This document shows, in pieces, positions 99-64,000 of a DNA stretch of 64,000 nucleotides. Position 1 is the first letter of the stretch. Each line of letters starts with the position of its first letter. This DNA is from Roseospira marina (GTDB lineage Bacteria > Pseudomonadota > Alphaproteobacteria > Rhodospirillales > Rhodospirillaceae). The notes beneath the pieces were generated by a model. That model did not search any database. It saw nothing but the letters and a program-made list of their open reading frames with translations, and had not been told where the DNA came from. A program made the translations under genes and the position numbers. The stretch spans positions 1 through 64,000 of the forward strand of contig NZ_JACIGJ010000014.1 of NCBI RefSeq assembly GCF_014197855.1. The letters are read 5' to 3'.

Positions 99-207
99 TC
101 TAGAGCAAATCCCGAGCGATCTGGAACAGATCGCGACGACGATTTGCTTCAATATCAAAAAGTTAGAGCATTTTGCGTGATCCCGATGTCACGCAAAATG
201 CTCTAGG
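99..207. repeat. 109 bp dispersed palindromic repeat, copy 1
   Basis: This 109 bp stretch recurs without a mismatch at 63175-63283 in the same orientation. It holds two hairpins. Module A spans 104-148, with outer arms AGCAAATC/GATTTGCT and an inner stem GCGATCTG-gaa-CAGATCGC (116-134). Module B spans 165-204, a perfect 16 bp stem (AGAGCATTTTGCGTGA) around an 8-base loop. An AT-rich linker separates them. The last bases (CTCTAG) supply the TAG stop codon of the minus-strand gene ending at 203. Module B could act as a bidirectional terminator or an RNA-stabilising hairpin between the convergent transposase and TPR/SHOCT genes; this role is inferred. Confidence 0.9.
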
Positions 208-27928: not shown

Positions 27929-27955
27929 CTGACCCAGATACCCGGACCGTCCGCG

Positions 27956-28190
27956 TGGGAGAGACCGGCCGTCATCCGCCCTGAAGAGGGCGAGGGCGAT
28001 CGGCGCCGAAGGAGCAACCGCCCCCGGAAACTCTCAGGCAAAAGGACCGCGCGGACGCGGGACTCTGGAAAGCGGGTGCGTGCCAGCCTTGGTTGGTGCG
28101 TGCCTCACCGAAGATGTAAGCCGCCGCGCGGGCGTTCACCGCTCCACCGGTCCGGTCAATCTTTCAGGTTCCATGACAGAGGGGGGCAAG
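27956..28190 (+). ncRNA. tandem glycine riboswitch
   Basis: Two glycine aptamers in series precede gcvT. Aptamer 1 (about 27956-28078) has GGGAGAGACC, GGCGCCGAAGGAGCAA, AAACTCTCAGGCAAAAGGAC and GGACTCTGGAAAGC, the classical core. Aptamer 2 (about 28085-28190) has CACCGAAGATGTAAGCC, AATCTTTCAGGTTCC and GACAGAGGGG. Cooperative glycine binding by such pairs usually turns on glycine cleavage genes. No clear intrinsic terminator follows in the 80 bases to gcvT, so control of translation initiation or of an unseen terminator is likely. Confidence 0.92.
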
Positions 28191-28269: not shown

Positions 28270-29394
28270 GTGTCCGAGTCCGCCGCCTCTCCGTCCGAGC
28301 CTCCGCTTCGCACCACCCCCCTCGACGCCCTGCATCGGGAGTTGGGCGGCAAGATGGTGCCGTTCGCCGGCTACGCCATGCCGGTGCAGTACCCGGCCGG
28401 GGTGCTGAAGGAGCACCTGCACACCCGCGCCAAGGCTGGGTTGTTCGACGTTTCCCACATGGGGCAGGTTCGCCTGACCGGGGACGATCCGGCCGGTGCG
28501 CTGGAACGCATCGTGCCGGGCGCCATCCGCGCGGTGAAGCCCGGCCGCCAGCGTTACACCCTGCTGCTGAACGAGACCGGCGGCATCCTCGACGACCTGA
28601 TGGTCGCCAACGCGGGCGACCACCTGTTCGCGGTGCTGAACGCCGCGTGCAAGGCCGAGGATATCGCCCACCTGCGCGCCCATCTGACGGACGTCGATCT
28701 CGTCGAGTTGACCGAGCATGCGCTGCTGGCGCTTCAGGGGCCGGCGGCGGCCGCCGTGCTGGAGACTCTGGCGCCGGAGGTCGCGACCATGCGCTTCATG
28801 GACGCCTGCGCGCTGGAGATCCGGGGCGTGCCGTGCTTCGTCACCCGCTCCGGCTACACCGGGGAGGACGGGTTCGAGATCAGCGTGCCCGCCGATGCGG
28901 CCGAGGATCTGGCCCGCACCCTGCTGGCGCACGAGGACGTGGCGCCGATCGGCCTGGGTGCTCGCGATTCGCTGCGGTTGGAGGCCGGTCTGTGCCTCTA
29001 TGGCTCCGACATCGACACCACCACCACGCCGATCGAGGCCGATCTGGCCTGGACCCTCGGCAAGGCCCGCCGGGAGGCGGGGGACTTCCCGGGCGCCGAG
29101 ATCATTCTGGAACAGCTGCGCGATGGCCCCGGCCGCAAGCGGGTGGGCATCCGGCCCGAGGGCCGGGCGCCCGCGCGGGCCGGAACGCCGATCCACGCCC
29201 CGGGTGGCGAGGCCATCGGCGTCGTCACCAGCGGCGGCTTCGGCCCGACCGTCGAGGGGCCGGTGGCCATGGGCTATGTGCCCGCCCCGCTTGCCGCGCC
29301 GGGCACCGAGCTTGATCTGATGGTGCGCGGGCGTGCCCTGCCGGCCCGCGTCGTCTCGCTGCCCTTCACGCCGCCGCGCCAGCACCGGGGCTGA
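28270..29394 (+). CDS. gcvT: glycine cleavage system T protein (aminomethyltransferase)
   Basis: 374 residues from GTG 28270. GcvT motifs: LHRELGGKMVPFAGYAMPVQY, HTRAKAGLFDVSHMGQV, GGILDDLMV, and SGYTGEDGFEISVP. It takes the aminomethyl group from lipoylated GcvH and passes the methylene carbon to tetrahydrofolate, releasing ammonia. It is the first gene downstream of the glycine riboswitch, in order T-H-PA-PB. Confidence 0.97.
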   Translation: MSESAASPSEPPLRTTPLDALHRELGGKMVPFAGYAMPVQYPAGVLKEHLHTRAKAGLFDVSHMGQVRLTGDDPAGALERIVPGAIRAVKPGRQRYTLLLNETGGILDDLMVANAGDHLFAVLNAACKAEDIAHLRAHLTDVDLVELTEHALLALQGPAAAAVLETLAPEVATMRFMDACALEIRGVPCFVTRSGYTGEDGFEISVPADAAEDLARTLLAHEDVAPIGLGARDSLRLEAGLCLYGSDIDTTTTPIEADLAWTLGKARREAGDFPGAEIILEQLRDGPGRKRVGIRPEGRAPARAGTPIHAPGGEAIGVVTSGGFGPTVEGPVAMGYVPAPLAAPGTELDLMVRGRALPARVVSLPFTPPRQHRG

Positions 29395-61956: not shown

Positions 61957-62505
61957 ATGGGACAGGGCACGGAACACGGAACCGGAGGCGGCGTGCAGCA
62001 CCGCGATAGGGCGCCCGCGCGGCCGGTCCGTTGGGGACTGACTCTGGCGGCGGTGGTCATTCTGCTCGATCAGGCGACCAAGTATGCCGTGTTCGCCGGC
62101 CTTCAGCCCGCGCCGACCGGCGTGCCGGTGACCGGGTTCTTCTCTCTGGTCCGGGTCTGGAACCCGGGCGTGTCGTTCGGCTTGTTTGCCACCGGATCGC
62201 CCTGGACGCCGATTGTGCTGACGGGGCTTGCGCTCGCCGTGTCGGTCGGTCTCGCCTGGTGGCTGCGCCGGGCCGGCAGCCGCGTGGCGGTCGGCGGTCT
62301 GGGGCTGCTGATCGGTGGCGCGGTCGGCAACGCCATCGACCGCATGGTGCATGGGGCCGTGATGGACTTTCTGGATGTCCACGTGGCCGGATATCACTGG
62401 CCGGCGTTCAATGTGGCGGATTCGGCGATTACCGTAGGGGCGGTCCTGCTGGTGTGGGATGCCTTGTTCGCGGGCGGCAAATCGCCTAAGACCAACGGCG
62501 GATGA
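61957..62505 (+). CDS. lspA: lipoprotein signal peptidase (signal peptidase II)
   Basis: 182 residues from ATG 61957 (CAGGAG upstream). Four membrane helices (LTLAAVVILLDQATKYAVF, IVLTGLALAVSVGLAWWL, VGGLGLLIGGAVGNAIDR, SAITVGAVLLVWDALF). The catalytic aspartates are Asp128 in GNAIDR and Asp155 in FNVADS. It removes signal peptides from diacylated prolipoproteins in the inner membrane. The ~30-residue basic N-terminus is longer than usual. The 227-base leader upstream is rich in potential stem-loops. Confidence 0.95.
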   Translation: MGQGTEHGTGGGVQHRDRAPARPVRWGLTLAAVVILLDQATKYAVFAGLQPAPTGVPVTGFFSLVRVWNPGVSFGLFATGSPWTPIVLTGLALAVSVGLAWWLRRAGSRVAVGGLGLLIGGAVGNAIDRMVHGAVMDFLDVHVAGYHWPAFNVADSAITVGAVLLVWDALFAGGKSPKTNGG

Positions 62506-62612
62506 GTCGGACTCATCCGTCGAGTGGGCGGACCGCGGATGCGGACGGTCCTGGTTCGTCACCGTCGGTCCAAGATTTCGGGGCGCGGATGTCATTGGGT
62601 GGAGCGTTGACC

Positions 62613-63179
62613 ATGCGAGGCTGGATCGCCGCGGGCATTGCCGTCGGGCTGCTGGCCGGGCTGACGGGCTGCGACAATCCCAAACGGGCGCTTGGGTTGC
62701 AGAAAGAGCCGCCGGACGAGTTCGCCGTCGTGACCCGCGCGCCGCTCAGCCTGCCGCCGGACTTCAACCTCCGGCCGCCGAGCCCGGGTTCCGCCCGGCC
62801 GCAGGAAGGCACGACCCGCGATCAGGCGCGCCGGGTGATTACCGGCGCCCCCGGTGCGGGCGGCGTTACGCAGCGCGCCCTGCCGGAGGGCGCCAGCGAG
62901 GGGGAGCGCGCCCTGCTGACGCGCGCCGGAACCGACCGCGCCATTCCGGATATCCGGGCCGTGGTCGAGGAAGAGACCAGCGTTCTGGCCGAGGAGAGCC
63001 GCGGCTTCGCCGATGTGCTGCTGTTCTGGCGCGAGCCGGAGTCCTTCGGCACGCAACTGGACGCCACTGCCGAGAGCCGGCGGCTGCGGGAAAACCGCGC
63101 GCTCGGCCAGCCGCCCACCACGGGCGCCTCGCCCTCGATCGAGCGGCGCGAGAAAGGCATCCTGGAAGGGTTGTTCTAG
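62613..63179 (+). CDS. DUF3035 (BamF-like) lipoprotein
   Basis: 188 residues from ATG 62613 (GGAG 9 bases upstream); an in-frame ATG at 62589 would also work. Signal helix and lipobox GLTGC are followed by PPDEFAVVTRAPLSLPPDFNLRPPSPGSARPQE, the hallmark of DUF3035, annotated as the alphaproteobacterial BAM accessory lipoprotein BamF. It would sit in the outer membrane with the beta-barrel assembly machine. It follows lspA, as in related genomes. Its TAG stop (63177-63179) lies inside the left end of the 109 bp repeat. Confidence 0.85.
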   Translation: MRGWIAAGIAVGLLAGLTGCDNPKRALGLQKEPPDEFAVVTRAPLSLPPDFNLRPPSPGSARPQEGTTRDQARRVITGAPGAGGVTQRALPEGASEGERALLTRAGTDRAIPDIRAVVEEETSVLAEESRGFADVLLFWREPESFGTQLDATAESRRLRENRALGQPPTTGASPSIERREKGILEGLF

Positions 63180-63283
63180 AGCAAATCCCGAGCGATCTGG
63201 AACAGATCGCGACGACGATTTGCTTCAATATCAAAAAGTTAGAGCATTTTGCGTGATCCCGATGTCACGCAAAATGCTCTAGG
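63175..63283. repeat. 109 bp dispersed palindromic repeat, copy 2
   Basis: Identical to 99-207 and in the same orientation. Module A spans 63180-63224, module B (16 bp stem) 63241-63280. The left-end TCTAGA supplies the TAG stop of the BamF-like gene. The hairpins may end transcription or protect the mRNA 3' end before the next gene. Confidence 0.92.
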
Positions 63284-63384: not shown

Positions 63385-63726
63385 ATGCCGCCGAAGGCCA
63401 ACCCGAAGAAACTTAATACGCTTCAGCTCAAGACCCTGACCCTGATCCAGGAACTGGCCCAGGATCCCTCGGTGGCGACCAAGGACCCGGCCACCGGGAA
63501 CATCACCATCGGCCGGCTGCCCCATCCGCACGGCAATCACTTTCACCTGGGCCGCTACGTGGTGATGAAGGCCGACGCGAACGGCCTGGAGAACCAGGGC
63601 GTGTGGATGGCGCTGATTCGTAAAGGTCTGGTGGTGCCGGGCGAGGGCGGCATGGCCCTAACGCCGGAGGGCCAAGCGTACGAGACCGGCCTGCGCGAGG
63701 CCATCCTGCACGGATCGGATCACTAA
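63385..63726 (+). CDS. small conserved hypothetical protein
   Basis: 113 residues from ATG 63385. Helical start (NPKKLNTLQLKTLTLIQELAQDP), then GRLPHPHGNHFHLGRYVVMKADANGLENQGVWMALIRKGLVV and LTPEGQAYE. The His-rich segment and the winged-helix-like end (a basic ALIRKGLVVPGEGG wing followed by LTPEGQAYE) suggest a small nucleic-acid-binding fold, but no family is recognised. The TAA stop is followed immediately by the diverged repeat element. Confidence 0.7.
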   Translation: MPPKANPKKLNTLQLKTLTLIQELAQDPSVATKDPATGNITIGRLPHPHGNHFHLGRYVVMKADANGLENQGVWMALIRKGLVVPGEGGMALTPEGQAYETGLREAILHGSDH

Positions 63727-63812
63727 AGCGGGTTTGTGTGAGCCGGATGTCCCGCACGATGCTCTAAACAAAACGCCCGGCGCGATCCGGAGCGGATCGC
63801 GCGGACGGCGTT
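63727..63812. repeat. diverged, rearranged relative of the 109 bp repeat
   Basis: Module B-like hairpin 63727-63763 (tttgtgtga...tcccgcacgatgct) comes first, then module A-like hairpin 63772-63812 with inner stem GCGATCCG-gag-CGGATCGC and outer arms AACGCC/GGCGTT. Order is B-A instead of A-B. The inner stem differs from copies 1 and 2 by a T-A to C-G pair swap. It fills exactly the gap between two convergent stop codons. Confidence 0.8.
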
Positions 63813-64000
63813 CAAAACAGCAGGTCCGAGATATCCGGCTCGCCGGGGGCGGCCGGTGCCGGTGCCGGAGCGGGCGCGGATGTCGGCCGCGAGCGCGGCC
63901 GGGAGGGCCCGGGCGATCGCATCGGCTGGGCGCCCTCCTGAAACAGCGCCTCGTGGATCTCGCGCTCGTCCGCCATTGTGTAATGCGTGCTCAGGAACGC
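63812..64000 (-). CDS. 3' end of a CheZ-like chemotaxis phosphatase gene (partial)
   Basis: The minus strand is open from the window end to TGA at 63814-63812. The visible 62 residues are HYTMADEREIHEALFQEG, a Pro/Ala/Arg-rich linker and the terminal DISDLLF. The 'YTM-x-(S/D)ER-x-(I/V)HEA' block and a short acidic-hydrophobic tail resemble the C-terminus of alphaproteobacterial CheZ-type CheY-P phosphatases. Most of the gene is outside the window. Confidence 0.5.
   Translation of the reverse strand, partial: AFLSTHYTMADEREIHEALFQEGAQPMRSPGPSRPRSRPTSAPAPAPAPAAPGEPDISDLLF

Follow-up and report, generated by a model that had tools for sequence, protein, structure and literature searches.

Two identical copies of a two-hairpin element form stop codons

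The 64,000-nucleotide stretch of Roseospira marina DNA analyzed here (the window) raises the question of why two identical repeats, one close to each end, should each supply the stop codon of a neighboring gene. As an initial annotation had noticed, positions 99 to 207 and 63175 to 63283 agree at 109 of 109 bases, and the first base outside differs on each side. The pair was the sole long exact repeat among the best 20 of the 46 direct-repeat families listed, which, together with its recurrence across the genome (see below), excludes chance as the source of the identity. The position of the copies, one near each end of the window, is incidental, and contig C14 itself starts at base 1 of the window.

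The true unit was found to be 101 bp (GAGC...GCTC; 103 to 203 for copy 1 and 63179 to 63279 for copy 2, both on the plus strand) lying between duplicated TA dinucleotides at 101 to 102 and 204 to 205 (copy 1) and at 63177 to 63178 and 63280 to 63281 (copy 2). The outer TC and GG of the 109-bp match are target context outside this unit. The GC content of the element is 46%, compared with 70% for the window. Both strands of each copy are predicted to fold into two hairpins (-52.5 and -51.0 kcal/mol with RNA parameters). Hairpin 1, the arm with the more conserved bases, occupies 103 to 149 and 63179 to 63225, and hairpin 2, which includes the right TA, occupies 164 to 205 and 63240 to 63281. The two hairpins had thus been correctly annotated, but the long stem, that of hairpin 2, has 17 perfect pairs rather than the 16 given. 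On the minus strand of copy 2, hairpin 2 is followed by ACTTTTTGAT.

The two stop codons are made at the element edge, as had also been proposed. At copy 2, the plus-strand DUF3035 gene (62502 to 63179) ends with TAG at 63177 to 63179, and at copy 1, the minus-strand SHOCT-domain gene (203 to 1588) ends with TAG, read as CTA at 203 to 205 on the plus strand, where C203 of the element meets the right TA. A probable degenerate relative on the minus strand (63727 to 63820, extent and orientation judged by eye) begins next to the TAA stop codon of the gene at 63385 to 63726; the blastn match was 82% over 34 nt (63733 to 63766; E value of 7.6e-4). An extra TAGAGC at 92 to 97, directly left of copy 1, is perhaps the remnant of an earlier end. 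The element had no match in Rfam at gathering thresholds, where the only two window matches were a tandem pair of glycine riboswitch aptamers at 27946 to 28181, upstream of the gene at 28270, nor did it match the plasmid and phage collections.

The element belongs to a family present in related genomes

In the window's own genome (G000; 57 contigs, 4.6 Mb), a covariance model located the element at 43 places (E value of 0.01), so the genome-wide search that the initial annotation had called for showed that it is not unique to the two sites. With blastn there were 48 matching rows, some of them a palindromic arm matched on the opposite strand. Among 40 genomes, G000 included, 10 matched at an E value of 1e-4, comprising all six of genus g1, two from the family (G012 and G020), and two from the order (G035 and G038). 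At an E value of 1e-10, the model found between 2 and 101 copies per genome in six relatives: 22 in G001, 40 in G002, 101 in G005, 4 in G004, 2 in G012, and 23 in G020. Hairpin 1 was the better conserved arm, with a mean commonest-base frequency of 0.929 versus 0.758 for hairpin 2 (across 109 copies, each 109 bp long).

The element inserts at TA and duplicates it

Copies share the layout Y-TA-[GAGC...two hairpins...GCTC]-TA-R. The base left of the first TA was Y in 78/85 copies and that right of the second TA was R in 79/84, while the GAGC and GCTC termini were nearly fixed (85 copies). The left and right 4-mers did not covary: where both TAs were intact, the left one was TTAN in 19/69 copies, and just 2 of these 19 also had TTAN on the right. 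The duplication is therefore TA and not YTAR.

Empty sites were found in congeners. In G004, the closest congener by the DUF3035 protein (82% identity), the orthologue ends TTC-TAA-GGCC with no element, where the window has TTC-TA-element-TA-GGCC; the orthologues of G001, G002, and G003, also free of the element, end TTC-TGA. Orthologues of seven further genes with copies flush against the stop were examined (eight joined gene ends minus L031, which gave no orthologue hit; three clipped loci fall outside this set). At the L017 site, G003 has AAAGTC-TAG-GGC, and at the L056 site, G004 has TTTCTC-TAG-GGC, in each case without the element and with the stop at the same codon; the G000 copy at L056 is preceded by G-TA and has a degenerate right end. 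The stop was unchanged at three sites. At L034 congeners retain the stop position, as TGA or TAG, and at L038, L040, L047, and L048 the C termini of the orthologues differ and are uninformative on empty sites. Together with the Y-TA-R flanks, the empty sites indicate insertion at the TA of a YTAR site, with duplication of that TA, bearing out the earlier suggestion of insertion at CTAG-like sites, and the lack of copy 2 at the orthologous stop of G004 agrees with the recent spread that had been proposed.

G005 also has a copy at the DUF3035 stop, with a similarity of 0.90 to other G005 copies and 0.81 to the window copy. By these similarities it fits an independent insertion; alternatively, it could be ancestral, with losses elsewhere and homogenization among copies. 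Adjoining copies were seen in G005 at L199 and L209, joined through CTC-TA-GAGC or CCC-TA-GAGC (GCTC-TA-GAGC at L199) as if one had inserted at the other's TA.

The ends of the element resemble those of IS630-family elements

IS630-family elements in 5 of 478 matching plasmid records (from Azospirillum, Sphingobium, Sphingomonas, Mesorhizobium, and Roseomonas) all had Y-TA-GAGC...GCTC-TA-R ends. A profile was built from 12 IS630 ends, ten from these plasmid elements, one from G000, and one from G002. It scored the two ends of the element above composition-matched shuffles (p of 2.5e-4 for the left end and 1e-3 for the right), its best offset being the exact TA boundary on either strand, with p values of 5e-4 to 8e-3 against genomic background; for the right-end consensus of three congeners, p ranged from 0.0018 to 0.0096. 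Past GAGC the likeness is moderate, the element ends scoring 8.9 and 6.3 and the IS ends, each left out in turn, 2.7 to 20.0.

G000 itself has a single full-length IS630 copy, which carries a C-TA-GAGC end together with HTH and DDE_3 domains. Its transposase is split over two frames, and its right end is degenerate and was omitted from the profile. As DNA, this copy was not found in G001 or G005, though both are rich in copies of the short element. A screen of DDE_3 and DUF4096 transposases for TA-GAGC ends also yielded an IS630 pair in G002 (L132/L136), which was dropped as a partner owing to its apparently CCG-type ends. Within the IS630 family, ISY100 is an established case of transposition into TA with duplication of the target (PMC2170065), and the same paper cites a work whose title gives IS630 a preference for CTAG.

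Copies lie flush with stop codons more often than site availability predicts

Placement was examined for 125 copies (25/43 of G000, 20/22 of G001, 35/40 of G002, and 45/101 of G005); the copies of G004 (4), G012 (2), and G020 (23) and partial or weak matches lie outside these counts. Stops were taken from a gene caller, a codon-score cutoff having been dropped as too loose. With 2 nt of slack, 60/125 copies were flush with a called stop, in keeping with the bias to gene ends anticipated in the initial annotation, and 0/125 lay inside a called gene. By comparison, 259 background YTAR sites in 424 kb of G000, G001, and G002 comprised 111 within genes, 110 between genes, and 38 at stops. In these three genomes, flush copies (46/80) exceeded the background share of nongenic sites (38/148; p of 3e-6), also when sites between divergent (5'-5') genes were dropped (46/77 versus 38/107; p of 0.0016). 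With stratification by target (64 copies with intact YTAR in four genomes) the odds ratio was 3.4, with p values of 0.004 for CTAA, 0.05 for TTAA, and 0.19 (not significant) for CTAG. Availability of sites alone therefore does not explain placement at stops. In divergent gaps, nonflush copies were rarer than background, at 7/65 versus 36/110 intergenic sites. Where neighboring genes converge, some copies lying between them supply the called stop to both, namely, L176 and L193 in G002 and L354 and L356 in the more distant G177.

The initial annotation had offered, as one of two readings of the flush fit, a 3'-end function such as termination or mRNA protection. Such a fit follows from insertion of the element at TA within TAA or TAG, and it was no commoner in copies with less similar nearest neighbors: from least to most similar nearest copy, taken as a proxy for age, the flush fraction was 22/41, 15/38, and 23/46, showing no change. 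This flat fraction fits target choice with quick loss of harmful insertions. Since copies that appear older by this proxy are no more often flush, the stops are better explained by target choice than by a termination function.

A probable mobile element that rebuilds the stop codon

We conclude that the element is very probably a nonautonomous IS630-type MITE with a two-arm layout like that of CIR, the CcrM-associated intergenic repeats of Caulobacter. It is short, with 101 bp between the TA pair, has no transposase of its own, is flanked by a duplicated TA with empty sites elsewhere, and shares terminal repeats with IS630 elements, moderately so past GAGC. Judging from these ends, an IS630-family transposase is the likely mover; acting in trans, it would recognize TA-GAGC...GCTC-TA, and the unit would move to a TA inside YTAR, duplicating the TA. 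In this GC-rich genome, many tolerable TA sites would be the stop codons TAA and TAG. As both ends start TA-G, insertion into such a stop in either orientation would leave an in-frame TAG and the protein unaltered, and the stops appear to be donated because TA plus the G of the element rebuilds TAG. Insertions inside genes would be lost, presumably through selection, and those at stops or in 3' intergenic space would persist.

Other origins were weighed against this one. Movement of a REP- or BIME-like palindrome by a RAYT (Y1_Tnp) transposase would suit short, palindromic, intergenic repeats close to gene ends, but when a REP-type or TnpA-like mobilizer was sought, as had been proposed, no Y1_Tnp match was found in G000, nor in G001, G003, G005, G012, or G020, and matches were present in just two of the eight genomes searched (G002 and G004). 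To our knowledge, RAYT chemistry would not be expected to produce a 2-bp TA duplication, and we regard this origin as extremely improbable. Derivation from an IS5-family element, with duplication of a 4-bp YTAR, is improbable to a lesser degree. The YTAR target would suit it, and so would the GAGCC ends of L144, a copy of a DUF4096 transposase found in G002; however, left and right 4-mers that do not covary are at odds with a 4-bp duplication, and the ends of L144 are GAGCCTGAC, with an apparent TTA duplication, on account of which it was dropped as a partner in the screen for TA-GAGC ends. The corresponding known case, MITEPsy1 of Pseudomonas syringae, is similar in its 100-nt length and its CTAG or YTAA targets but has a 4-nt duplication and ends thought to be derived from the IS5 family (PMC3189936).

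A further reading, which we consider unlikely, is that of a selected RNA element (a terminator, stabilizer, or attenuator) kept at the 3' ends of genes, its mobility being incidental. Besides the excess of flush sites over availability, copies show a bias in orientation: hairpin 1 faced the stop in 46 cases and hairpin 2 in 17 (3 copies being at stops on both sides; p of 3e-4), in the same direction in all four genomes (10:5, 9:2, 15:8, and 12:2), and co-directional gaps, flush and nonflush together, gave 48 to 18, the nonflush ones showing a weaker bias (21:10; p of 0.07). Hairpins are retained at some pairs (8/23) through compensatory changes, and the minus strand has a terminator-like hairpin 2 followed by a T-rich stretch, present by a loose rule in 79/125 copies. 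The consensus covariation term is nevertheless about zero, and the hairpin-then-T-tract arrangement was seen on the minus strand only; on the plus strand, the favored orientation, hairpin 1 runs into a T-rich stretch in 1/125 copies. Apparently older copies are not more often flush. A nucleotide comparison of 300-bp flanks, which can miss flanks that have diverged, found a single insertion site common to genomes (that at DUF3035), and at L196 and L246 the flanks are homologous but the copies lie in opposite orientations. Insertion of an IS630-type MITE leaves the orientation bias unaccounted for; one possible cause is selection against the terminator-like minus orientation. Given this bias and the minus-strand hairpin, the element may also have a role at 3' ends.

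Relation to CIR and other known repeats

A close known parallel is RUP of Streptococcus pneumoniae, a 107-bp intergenic repeat with a TA target, whose ends resemble the IS630-family element IS630-Spn1 and which is thought to move in trans (PMC2229807). The RUP ends are described as highly similar to those of its partner, whereas those of the window element are moderately so past GAGC, and rebuilding of host stop codons does not figure in the available RUP description in that review. CIR, from the Alphaproteobacteria, are intergenic repeats of about 110 bp whose two arms are joined by a linker and which have TA termini and GANTC at one loop; according to the available text, more information is needed on how they move (PMC2229807). 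By this description, rather than by the CIR1-4 sequences, the element resembles CIR in its size of about 110 bp, in its pair of linked arms, and in its terminal TA. GANTC was found in the hairpin 2 loop region of 83/125 copies. The share was 79/100 in congeners (18/20, 21/35, and 40/45) but 4/25 in G000, with neither window copy among these; at 179 to 183, copy 1 reads GATCC in place of the GANTC of most congener copies. Conservation at the main position is 92 to 96% for G, A, and C and 71% for T, and the middle N is variable. Most G000 copies have lost this site (element position 81), which most congener copies keep. QMITE2 of Coxiella burnetii, by description, is another bacterial MITE that lies mostly in 3' untranslated regions of genes (PMC10969869). 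Among the literature matches listed, nothing was recognized on stop-codon rebuilding or on an IS630 origin of CIR.

A class-wide census of the TAGAGC...GCTCTA pattern gave matches in 83/144 genomes, a count that is not evidence because the reversed pattern, used as a control, gave more matches in G000 (22 versus 12) and in many other genomes. Nineteen distant copies, chosen as looking repetitive or two armed, were fetched from G177 (7/7), G080 (11/11), and G103 (1/4), with L362 and L364 looking like one place present twice. All 19 had the Y and R flanks; 8/19 were flush with a called stop, a count that may be low since the gene caller was trained on the window, and 0/19 lay inside a called gene. 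GANTC was present in 13/19 (1/7 in G177), and not all folded as two clean arms. By eye, a hairpin 1 core was common to 6/7 of the G177 copies, mostly as AAATCCCGAGCG. We tentatively suggest, as a possibility short of an even chance, that a class-wide alphaproteobacterial MITE lineage that includes CIR is moved by IS630 transposases and enters stops seamlessly through its TA-G ends, with oriented GANTC-loop copies drawn into 3'-end or CcrM-linked functions.

With the IS630-type reading, the movement of two-arm, CIR-like repeats, which the review left open, has an explanation that can be tested. It also shows how an element that targets TA and has TA-G ends can colonize stop codons with proteins unchanged, and for hairpins flush with stops, a terminator reading should not be the default.
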